From an uncultured Mycoplasma sp. (GTDB taxonomy: Bacteria > Bacillota_I > Bacilli_A > RF39 > UBA660), in assembly GCA_946554525.1 (NCBI GenBank), contig CAMNSE010000005.1:1-64000 (forward strand): a stretch of DNA of 64,000 nucleotides, read 5' to 3'. The notes beneath the pieces were generated by a model. The model saw only the letters and a list, made by a program, of their open reading frames with translations, was not told where the DNA came from and ran no database searches. This document shows, in pieces, positions 45,036-48,643 of the stretch (its first letter is position 1; each line of letters opens with the position of its first letter). The translations under genes and the position numbers were made by a program.

Positions 45036-45602
45036 ATGAAAAAATTGATTCTATATTTTGTTGATGATACTTTGCAGATTGTTTATAATGATACAGTTAT
45101 AAAAGAAAAATTAAAAAATGCAATTAATAATGGTATGATTTATGATAAAGATAAATTTACTATAGAGTTTGTTAAAATTTTGAAAAAAGAAAAAGTTAAA
45201 ATCAAATTATTTGGTGGAAGTATTACTGTGGTAAAAGAGCCTTTTTATCATCCTTCTTATTTATTTTATTTAGAACATCTTTTAGAAGACATAGGCTTTG
45301 CGACAGTTAGCTATATAAATATACAAGATTTATTTGTTAAAGACGGAGTTTATATAGGAGTAAATAATAATTATATGACTATATATTTTGATAAGGCTAT
45401 ATTTATAGATTTAAATGTGTTTAAAGATATTCCTAAAATAATTGAATTCTTTTGGGATTTAAATGATAAAAATATTTTATTATTTGGAAATAATAAAATT
45501 ATTCCTTCTATAAAATTGCAGAACAATGAGGTTTATTACTTTGAAAATTATAATAATTTTATAAATCAAAGTTTACTCAAAGTAAAAAAATATGATGCTT
45601 AA
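45036..45602 (+). CDS. Hypothetical protein
   Basis: 188 residues, ATG after AAAGGAATG. Soluble and strand-rich, with the segment FGGSITVVKEPFYHPSY followed by LEHLLEDIGF. The layout faintly recalls an actin-like subdomain, but no nucleotide-binding glycine motifs are visible, so I do not assign it. It sits between terminators, and is therefore probably monocistronic, between spoIIQ and the agr locus. Confidence 0.75.
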   Translation: MKKLILYFVDDTLQIVYNDTVIKEKLKNAINNGMIYDKDKFTIEFVKILKKEKVKIKLFGGSITVVKEPFYHPSYLFYLEHLLEDIGFATVSYINIQDLFVKDGVYIGVNNNYMTIYFDKAIFIDLNVFKDIPKIIEFFWDLNDKNILLFGNNKIIPSIKLQNNEVYYFENYNNFINQSLLKVKKYDA

Positions 45603-45689: not shown

Positions 45690-46394
45690 ATGGTTAAATT
45701 TATAATTGTTGATGATGATAGGGAAGAAATATCACATATTAAGAGGCTATTAGATGAGGTAGTAAAAGAAGAAAAGAAAGTCAATACTTTTACGACTTTA
45801 ACTAGTAGTTTAAAAAAAGAAATAGCAAATCTTGAGGAACGCAAAGTTTATATACTCGATATTGAACTGGGAAATAATGTAAGTGGAATTAATATTGCTA
45901 GATTAATTAGAGATGTTGATTGGGAAAGTGAAATTATATTTATTACCAATCATGATAAAATGTTTGAAATAGCGCATAGGGAAGTTTATGCAGTTTTTGA
46001 TTTTATTGAAAAATTTCATGATTTTGATAAAAAATTTAAAAAAGATATTCAAGAAATTTTAAAAAGAAATTTTGATAATAAAATGTTTGTATATAAAGCA
46101 AATAATATTGAACTTAATTTGTATTATAAATCTATTTTATATATTTATAGAGATACTGAAGAAAGAAAATTAGTTATTGTAACAGATACGAATGAGTATA
46201 AAGTGAATTTATGTATTAAAGAAATATGCGATTATTTAGATGATAGATTTAAGCAGTGTCATAGATCGTGTATTGTAAATACTAAACGTACTCAAGAAAA
46301 GAACTTTAAAGAAGGATATTTTACTGTGGATAATAAAAATGTTGGTAAAGTCTACATGCTTTCTAAAAAGTATATGAAAGAATTAGATGTATGA
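45690..46394 (+). CDS. agrA: AgrA-type LytTR response regulator
   Basis: 234 residues from the ATG at 45690 (GCGGAGGAG site). The receiver domain has acidic VDDD, phospho-Asp in VYILDIELG and a degenerate C-terminal part. A LytTR DNA-binding domain (about 135-234) has LYIYRDTEERKLVI and FKQCHRSCIVN. It should bind 9-bp direct repeats. ATGA overlap with the kinase gene. It lies upstream of agrC, the reverse of the staphylococcal order. Confidence 0.92.
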   Translation: MVKFIIVDDDREEISHIKRLLDEVVKEEKKVNTFTTLTSSLKKEIANLEERKVYILDIELGNNVSGINIARLIRDVDWESEIIFITNHDKMFEIAHREVYAVFDFIEKFHDFDKKFKKDIQEILKRNFDNKMFVYKANNIELNLYYKSILYIYRDTEERKLVIVTDTNEYKVNLCIKEICDYLDDRFKQCHRSCIVNTKRTQEKNFKEGYFTVDNKNVGKVYMLSKKYMKELDV

Positions 46395-47656
46395 CAGAAT
46401 TTGTTTTGTGGTCTTTGGCATGTTTGATTTCTAATTTGGGATTAATATTTTTCTATTATAAATTATCAGAAACTGAAAATAAGTTTGGATTTGTAAATGT
46501 TCTTTGTGTAATTTATGGAGTTTTGATTTTAGCTCTAATTAAATATTTCAAGCTTACCTTTTTAAGTCCATTTTCATTTTTTCTATCTTTTCCAATTATA
46601 TTTTATTCTATAGAGCATTCGGACTTGAAGAGGTTTGTATTTAATACCGTTATAATTTGGATTTATGGTGTATTATTAGACTTATTTAGCATGCTAGTAT
46701 TAGGAGGAATTTATCAGCTTTTAAAATTTAATATTTATAATCAAGTATCTATAATTGTTCCATCTATATTTGTTTTTGTCTTGTTTATTATGCTCGCTCA
46801 CTCAAAGCGGCTAAAAAAGGCAACTGATAATTTATATAATCTTATAAAAAAGATAAAGTATGCTGATTTAATGTTTTTAATATTTACTATTTTCATATTT
46901 GTTATTGGAGTTATTTTTATTATAAATATTAAACATATTAGTATCAATCTGATGGCATATTTAATAGTTATACTAATTATAATTGTTTTTATTTTACTTT
47001 TAAGAAAAAAATATTACGATATAGAAAACATTATATATTTAAAGACTCTTAGAGGAAATAATATTTTCTATAAAAAATCTGAAGAAGAACAAAGAATTTT
47101 AAAACATAATTTAATTGCTAAACTCTTAGGAATAAAATCAGTATCAAATAAAAAAGCTCAGATTTTAATAGATGATCTAGTTAACGATTTTAATTGTAAT
47201 GCAAACTTATCAAAAAGTATAAGTGAAATTCCATATGGTTTAGATGGCGTTATTTGTGAAATAATAAATCCATATTTTAATGAAATTAATTTTAAATTTT
47301 CTAATCAAATAAAAAACGATATTTTTGATTTATTAAAACCTAGAAGATATAATGTACTAGTTGAAAAGTTAACAATTTTATTAAATAACTCTATTGAATC
47401 ATGCATTAATAGCTCTAGCAAAATATTAGTAATTAATTTATATGAGGAAGAAAATGAAATTATAGTTGAAATAAAGAATTCTTTTTCATCTAACTTAGAT
47501 ATAGAATCTTTAGGAATGATTAATTATTCTACAAAAGGCAAAACAAGAGGGCTTGGGCTTTACTCTGCATTTAGAAATAATGAAGTAAGATTAAATATAA
47601 GCGTTGTAAATGACTTATTTGTTGCTAAGTTGTGTGCCAAGAGAAATAAACAGTAA
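46391..47656 (+). CDS. agrC: AgrC-type sensor histidine kinase
   Basis: 421 residues. Six or seven transmembrane segments in residues 1-205. DHp-like region around RILKHNLIAKLL (phospho-His in KHN). The GHKL ATPase has NNSIESC (N-box) and KGKTRGLGLYSAF (G-box). It senses the autoinducing peptide and phosphorylates the adjacent regulator. Ends in front of a bidirectional hairpin. Confidence 0.92.
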   Translation: MTEFVLWSLACLISNLGLIFFYYKLSETENKFGFVNVLCVIYGVLILALIKYFKLTFLSPFSFFLSFPIIFYSIEHSDLKRFVFNTVIIWIYGVLLDLFSMLVLGGIYQLLKFNIYNQVSIIVPSIFVFVLFIMLAHSKRLKKATDNLYNLIKKIKYADLMFLIFTIFIFVIGVIFIINIKHISINLMAYLIVILIIIVFILLLRKKYYDIENIIYLKTLRGNNIFYKKSEEEQRILKHNLIAKLLGIKSVSNKKAQILIDDLVNDFNCNANLSKSISEIPYGLDGVICEIINPYFNEINFKFSNQIKNDIFDLLKPRRYNVLVEKLTILLNNSIESCINSSSKILVINLYEEENEIIVEIKNSFSSNLDIESLGMINYSTKGKTRGLGLYSAFRNNEVRLNISVVNDLFVAKLCAKRNKQ

Positions 47657-47663
47657 ATAAAAC

Positions 47664-47743
47664 ATAAAAAAGCGGGTTATTATCGATATGAGCTTTGCCT
47701 CTTTGATTAAAGAATCATAGTTCATATTTAACCCGCTTTTTAT
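47664..47743. terminator. Large bidirectional hairpin between agrC and agrD
   Basis: AAAAAGCGGGTTA (47667-47679) pairs with TAACCCGCTTTTT (47729-47741). Inside it, ATATGA and TCATAT add a second helix, and TTTGATT/AGAATCA a third. It serves both convergent transcripts and may be more than a terminator. Confidence 0.75.
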
Positions 47744-47746
47744 ACC

Positions 47747-47857
47747 TTATATTAATTCTTCAGGACATTCTGGTTCATCCCAAAAAAAGTATAAAGTGAA
47801 TGGTGTTGCTGATGCTGATTCAGCAGCGCCACTTAATAAATTTGCTAAAAATGACAT
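47747..47857 (-). CDS. agrD: AgrD-like autoinducer peptide precursor without ring cysteine
   Basis: 36 residues, ATG at 47857 behind AAGGAGG. The N-terminal amphipathic leader is MSFLANLLSGAAES. The peptide region is ATPFTLYFFW and the acidic recognition tail DEPECPEELI matches AgrD tails (DE-x-x-x-P-x-EL). The residue five before the tail, normally Cys or Ser, is Leu; nearby Thr or Ser could form a lactone instead. The only Cys is in the tail. Followed by agrB on the same strand order (agrD is downstream of agrB). Confidence 0.85.
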   Translation of the reverse strand: MSFLANLLSGAAESASATPFTLYFFWDEPECPEELI

Positions 47858-47918
47858 TTGTTTACCTCCTTTACTTCTTAAATTTTGTTTAAATATATAT
47901 AAATCATTTAAACCATAA

Positions 47919-48521
47919 TTAATTATTTTTCTTATAGTATTTATAATTATTAAACTGTGTTTTCGTTACTTTATATGTTAATGGATTAATAAATACTATT
48001 TGAACTATTAGGGCATATAATATTGCGTTATTTACTATAATATTTTTGCTAAAATAATAAATTAAAAAGTATAGTATAACGGTTATAAGAGAAAATATTT
48101 TACATTTTTTTCTTTGACTTTTTCTAATTAGTGGTTTTTTAGGAGTATCAGCCGGTGCCCATAATGCCATTGATAAAAATGCAATTATTAAAACTATATA
48201 TCCTATATTTCTGGAAATATTAAAATCTTTAATTAATAAAGGAATTATGTTATAAATTATAATAGTAACAAACCAGCAAGCAAGACTGTTTTTGGCATGC
48301 ATCCCATAGCTAAAAGATCTTAGGCCTGCATAAAATAAAAGAAATAAGCAAGTTTCTGTAAACGTATCTAAAATTATTGATATGGTAACGCATGTTATCA
48401 ATTTTATAAATAAGCCATATATTCCCTCTAACCCATATTTTAGTTTTATAATTTTTAAATCATCGCATTCTTGATATTTTTGTATAAAATTAATAGATGA
48501 ATTTATAAATTTTTCTTTCAT
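47919..48521 (-). CDS. agrB: AgrB-type peptide processing membrane protease
   Basis: 200 residues with about six membrane segments. The catalytic His and Cys of AgrB are in SYGMHAKNSLACWF, and a basic cytosolic loop is RKSQRKKCK. It cleaves the AgrD tail and catalyses ring closure. agrB-agrD form one unit (gap 61 nt) converging on agrA-agrC. Confidence 0.93.
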   Translation of the reverse strand: MKEKFINSSINFIQKYQECDDLKIIKLKYGLEGIYGLFIKLITCVTISIILDTFTETCLFLLFYAGLRSFSYGMHAKNSLACWFVTIIIYNIIPLLIKDFNISRNIGYIVLIIAFLSMALWAPADTPKKPLIRKSQRKKCKIFSLITVILYFLIYYFSKNIIVNNAILYALIVQIVFINPLTYKVTKTQFNNYKYYKKNN

Positions 48522-48548: not shown

Positions 48549-48643
48549 ACTTATGGTTAAAAATAAATAAAGCGGGTTTGCGCTAAGTAAACGAGTTCGT
48601 GTTTAAAAACATTTTATACAGGTTTATTTTATATTTAAGATAA

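Follow-up and report, generated by a model that had tools for sequence, protein, structure and literature searches.

A putative Thr-closed lactone signal encoded in the agr locus of an uncultured, small-genome bacterium

The agr systems are best described in Staphylococcus aureus, in which AgrB, AgrD, AgrC and AgrA produce and sense thiolactone autoinducing peptides (AIPs). AgrB of this species acts with His77 and Cys84, probably through an acyl-enzyme, from which the peptide is passed to Cys28 of AgrD (PMC10482373; see also PMC4979651). The register of the staphylococcal precursor is C-D-F-I-M|DEP, with the ring Cys five residues before the tail (position -5), and five-residue rings are the commonest among AIPs. 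In S. aureus, AIPs in linear form lack activity (PMC10482373). In the surveyed open literature the ring-closing residue is Cys and rarely Ser. Ser lactones of the S. intermedius group and of GBAP are established, as are the six-residue rings of clostridia. However, AgrB1 and AgrB2 of S. aureus are unable to process a Ser-containing AgrD (PMC10482373), so an AgrB is not to be taken to accept a hydroxyl as a matter of course.

Here, an agr locus is described from a window of 64,000 nucleotides (contig CAMNSE010000005.1) of an uncultured bacterium with a small genome. It shares with the S. aureus system the layout of leader, core and DEPxxPEEL tail, the His/Cys pair of AgrB, an AgrC-like kinase with six transmembrane segments and a LytTR-type AgrA. 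It differs in having Thr instead of Cys as the putative ring residue, at position -6 rather than -5, and in its two convergent units, agrBD and agrAC, in place of a single operon. The AIPs of S. intermedius and S. pseudintermedius also carry a hydroxyl residue in place of Cys and form a lactone, as predicted for the window, but they use Ser and not Thr, in a five-residue ring and with no repeated switch across an order. In Fsr/GBAP of Enterococcus faecalis, an AgrB-like enzyme likewise produces a lactone, as proposed here, yet Ser closes a nine-residue ring and fsrD lies within the fsrB sequence. The agr locus of Clostridium acetobutylicum resembles the window in its predicted six-residue ring and its separate agrBD and agrCA units (PMC10301443). 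Its ring, however, is described among the thiolactones, whereas the window has Thr at the ring position, and the clostridial locus has a LanM-like companion.

Organization of the locus

The precursor gene agrD (47747..47857, minus strand; MSFLANLLSGAAESASATPFTLYFFWDEPECPEELI) encodes 36 residues and was recognized from its open reading frame (ORF) and ribosome-binding site, from the AgrD model TIGR04223 of NCBIfam and from its adjacency to agrB in relatives. It starts with ATG, behind a strong ribosome-binding site AGGAGGT (47864-47870), and lies 61 bp downstream of agrB on the same strand. The peptide scores 21.3 bits against the TIGR04223 cut-off of 19, while with the staphylococcal Pfam model PF05931 it stays below the threshold (13.3 against 22.7). 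The hydrophobic moment of its leader exceeds that of 97-99% of shuffled sequences, and its C-terminal tail for AgrB recognition, DEPECPEELI (47750..47779, minus strand), is conserved in relatives. These features confirm a preliminary description of the peptide as an AgrD-like precursor with a leader and this tail, and the core indeed contains no Cys, as had been noticed there. Thr21 stands at the place of the Cys of thiolactone AIPs. Ser, the ring residue of the lactone AIPs, is found at that place in four relatives and not in the window.

The gene agrB (47919..48521, minus strand) encodes a membrane cysteine protease/cyclase (PF04647, 118 bits) with five hydrophobic segments. The His/Cys pair that had been ascribed to it corresponds to His75 and Cys82, the equivalents of His77 and Cys84 of S. 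aureus, and is kept in 131 out of the 131 AgrBs compared, whether they serve Cys, Thr or Ser. No AgrB column in this alignment of 131 tracks the use of Thr cleanly.

In the convergent unit, agrA (45690..46394, plus strand) encodes a LytTR response regulator with Pfam matches to Response_reg and LytTR, and with S. aureus AgrA and ComE among its PDB matches. The neighboring agrC (46391..47656, plus strand) encodes a sensor histidine kinase with six membrane segments predicted by hydropathy. It has no match in Pfam, and its sole PDB match is the kinase domain of S. aureus AgrC (4bxi, E 7.5e-4). Thus, an AgrB with its His/Cys pair, a short AgrD beside agrB, and both AgrC and AgrA are present at the locus. 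An inverted repeat read directly from the sequence between agrC and agrD (AAGCGGGTTA...TAACCCGCTT, 47670..47739) is probably a terminator shared by the two convergent genes. Between a gene for an M23 peptidase and agrA, a 188-aa protein without a Pfam match is encoded (45036-45602, plus strand), which is present in every locus of the genus reaching that far, with 40-58% identity.

Two candidate regulator sites were located. The site TTACTTAGCGCAAAC upstream of agrB (48576..48590, minus strand) shows conservation within the genus, preceding the -10 element by about 28 bp, and the genome holds one exact match to it. The site TTACTTTGAGTAAAC upstream of agrA (45571..45585, minus strand) overlaps the 3′ end of the preceding ORF and belongs to a dyad nearly confined to the agr loci of the genus. 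This dyad, TTACTnnnAGTAAAC, was found in 33 of the genus's 36 genomes. Most occurrences are at the agr locus, and agrA is often preceded by a pair of copies spaced by about 73 bp (e.g., L032, L034, and L038). Of the two agrA copies, the upstream one is retained in the window and the one immediately following the -10 element is not recognizable; a variant of the dyad precedes agrB. The dyad is a candidate AgrA operator. A regulon search with it revealed no regulon outside agr: the extra sites examined fell inside ORFs or in a repeat-like hairpin.

The order agrA-agrC, agrD-agrB, csp, raiA/hpf, secA is syntenic across the taxonomic order of the window. The host assembly (1.13 Mb, 94% complete) has a single AgrB, and the locus is a chromosomal agr quorum-sensing locus. 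The relatives are metagenome-assembled genomes labelled in public records as Bacilli, Mycoplasmatota, Mycoplasma or Tenericutes; the group seems to be RF39-like and gut-dwelling.

A true agrD elsewhere, raised beforehand as an alternative partner of AgrB, was sought with TIGR04223 in the same assembly; no credible second gene was found, and the agrB/agrD pair of the window is the only one found there. The model gave just one other match, a weak hit of 12.3 bits on the strand opposite a GatB-like ORF.

The residue at position -6 among relatives

AgrB was searched in 36 genomes of the genus, 243 of the family and 288 of the order, as well as in 60 further regions, and the AgrD beside each agrB was read, giving about 130 peptides. 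Two spurious ORFs (L060 and L093) were removed by hand from the residue counts, together with L084, which has Ser but an unusual tail (SSDWIL|FQTKEP), and three AgrDs that do not belong to the order (L154, L158 and L166). Sampling at the class and phylum levels yielded mostly members of this order along with distant Bacilli. A few of the latter have Ser at -5 (L148 and L158); these Bacilli were too few and were kept out of the counts.

In the order of the window the ring Cys is usually located at -6 before the tail, as in GSQA-CYLVIL|DEPECPK. In the same register the window reads T-LYFFW|DEPECPEELI, with Thr21 (ACT codon, 47795..47797, minus strand) at -6. The Leu which had been noted where Cys should be is therefore not a failed ring residue: the staphylococcal -5 had been assumed, and Leu22 simply occupies that place. 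The alignment of related agrD genes, proposed earlier as a check, shows that position -6 is Cys in most of the peptides and is Cys, Thr or Ser throughout, except for a few with Cys one place upstream. Where Cys is absent from -10 to -3 (39 peptides), the residue at -6 is Thr in 35 and Ser in four, while in the same peptides Ser or Thr occupies positions -1 to -5 in 2% on average. Users of Thr beyond the genus are L046, L052, L059, L079, L091, L105 and L111, and the users of Ser are L066, L092, L113 and L120.

Within the genus, Thr is the rule (28 Thr and three Cys). Within the core, variability is lowest at -6 (0.46 bits) and highest at the adjoining -5. Thr recurs at -6 in another 27 species of the genus, with ACA, ACT and ACC as its codons, which excludes chance or a sequencing error at Thr21; the earlier caveat of a Cys codon in the reads was checked against this recurrence of the Thr codon.

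Ring size varies somewhat in the order, since a few relatives carry Cys at -7 or -5. Five AgrDs (L048, L070, L106, L130, and L162) have Cys at -7 from the tail, which would mean either a ring of seven residues or a displaced cut. Two others (L051, 2123-2239, and L065, 1272-1388) combine Thr at -6 with Cys at -5 (TCTFIF and TCMFAF). They were scored as Cys, and possibly they represent intermediates between the six- and five-residue registers.

The Cys of the tail was also considered as a ring residue and rejected. It shows no conservation beyond the genus of the window, its place being taken by M, T, A or Y in one relative or another. It is present too in L013 and L018, which have Cys in the core, and it lies in the segment expected to be cut off.

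Repeated switching on the AgrB tree

On the tree of 131 AgrBs, which retains L154 although it lies outside the order, the Cys, Thr and Ser labels require at least 10 changes (about ten), against a mean of 34 for shuffled labels; some rows are long branches, and the exact number of switches is unsure. The tree of the 44 nearest AgrBs needs five changes (four to six in bootstraps), and these 44 rows reject a common clade of the Thr users (p-AU 0.014). With the starred branches alone, the Thr label must still change four times on the large tree and twice on that of the 44 AgrBs. The Cys pair L013/L018 is placed inside the genus of the window, and one origin for the three Cys species of the genus (this pair and L031) gave a p of 0.66. 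The exchange between Cys and Thr thus appears, from these trees, to have occurred several times among the relatives. Since the locus is syntenic across the order, the exchanges among Cys, Thr and Ser are changes inside one inherited locus.

The predicted signal and its alternatives

The reading that we hold to be probable is that this ordinary agr locus yields a six-residue O-lactone closed by Thr21 and cut after Trp26 (T21-L-Y-F-F-W26, 47780..47797, minus strand). The cut before DEP is placed by the S. aureus register, and the comparison of relatives strongly supports a ring through this Thr, which had been one of the variants first suggested, as only Cys, Thr and Ser exchange there. AgrB would bind the leader and the DEPxxPEEL tail of AgrD, and its Cys82 would cut after Trp26 to give an acyl-enzyme thioester. 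The hydroxyl of Thr21 would then attack the thioester and form the lactone, which would carry an N-terminal exocyclic tail. After removal of the leader and export it would be sensed by AgrC, and AgrA would act on the agr promoters. From the exchange at -6 we infer an ester between the side-chain hydroxyl and the C-terminal carboxyl; the cut site, the length of the tail, sensing by AgrC and autoregulation are likewise predicted. Formation of an ester from a thioester is chemically favorable, so the step at Thr21 would need no new cofactor. As AgrB of S. aureus fails on a Ser-containing AgrD, the acceptance of a hydroxyl must be a property of the AgrBs of this group.

The alternative that survives best, although unlikely, is a linear hydrophobic peptide. 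In this case AgrB would still cleave behind Trp26, but hydrolysis of the acyl-enzyme would release the product, and the role of Thr21 would be limited to recognition. The ring is deduced from sequence, and the failure of S. aureus AgrB on Ser (PMC10482373) would suit such a peptide, but a residue kept for recognition should not be confined to just Cys, Thr and Ser, a rule obeyed by 39 of the 39 peptides lacking a core Cys. Nothing would then keep -6 to three nucleophilic residues, and this disfavors the linear signal proposed at first. In addition, linear AIPs have no activity in S. aureus (PMC10482373).

Rather less probable is a five-residue ring T-L-Y-F-F of staphylococcal style, with Thr21 as the nucleophile and the cut one residue earlier. 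That ring size is the commonest, and the cut site in the window is deduced. On the contrary, the DEP tail that marks the S. aureus cut is retained and, in the relatives, almost always preceded by a hydrophobic or aromatic residue, like the C-terminus of an AIP; moreover, six-residue rings exist in clostridia. A degenerate AgrD, or closure by Ser14, Ser16 or Thr18 as a larger lactone for which GBAP is a precedent, is the least probable of all: agrD is undamaged, and the genus as a whole conserves it next to agrB, and positions -8 to -12 vary, being often neither Ser nor Thr in relatives, which also disfavors the earlier proposal of a lactone from these residues.

The locus is placed in the agr family, and its new feature, as judged from comparative sequence, would be Thr as the ring nucleophile. 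No Thr-closed AIP was found in the open-access literature, which omits many papers on agr chemistry and is not proof of absence. With somewhat less confidence than for the Thr21 lactone, yet still as the likelier case, we propose a class of AIPs in which the AgrBs of one order have gone back and forth repeatedly between a thiol (Cys) and a hydroxyl (Thr or Ser), mostly in a six-residue ring, giving thiolactone and lactone signals from the same syntenic locus.

For annotation, a search centred on Cys would discard such precursors as broken, yet Thr is the rule in this genus. The recurrent swap makes the chemistry of the ring directly testable. AgrBs within one genus appear to serve either Cys or Thr, and these natural pairs (the window vs. 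L013/L018) allow one to ask what lets an AgrB take an oxygen nucleophile and how AgrC follows.
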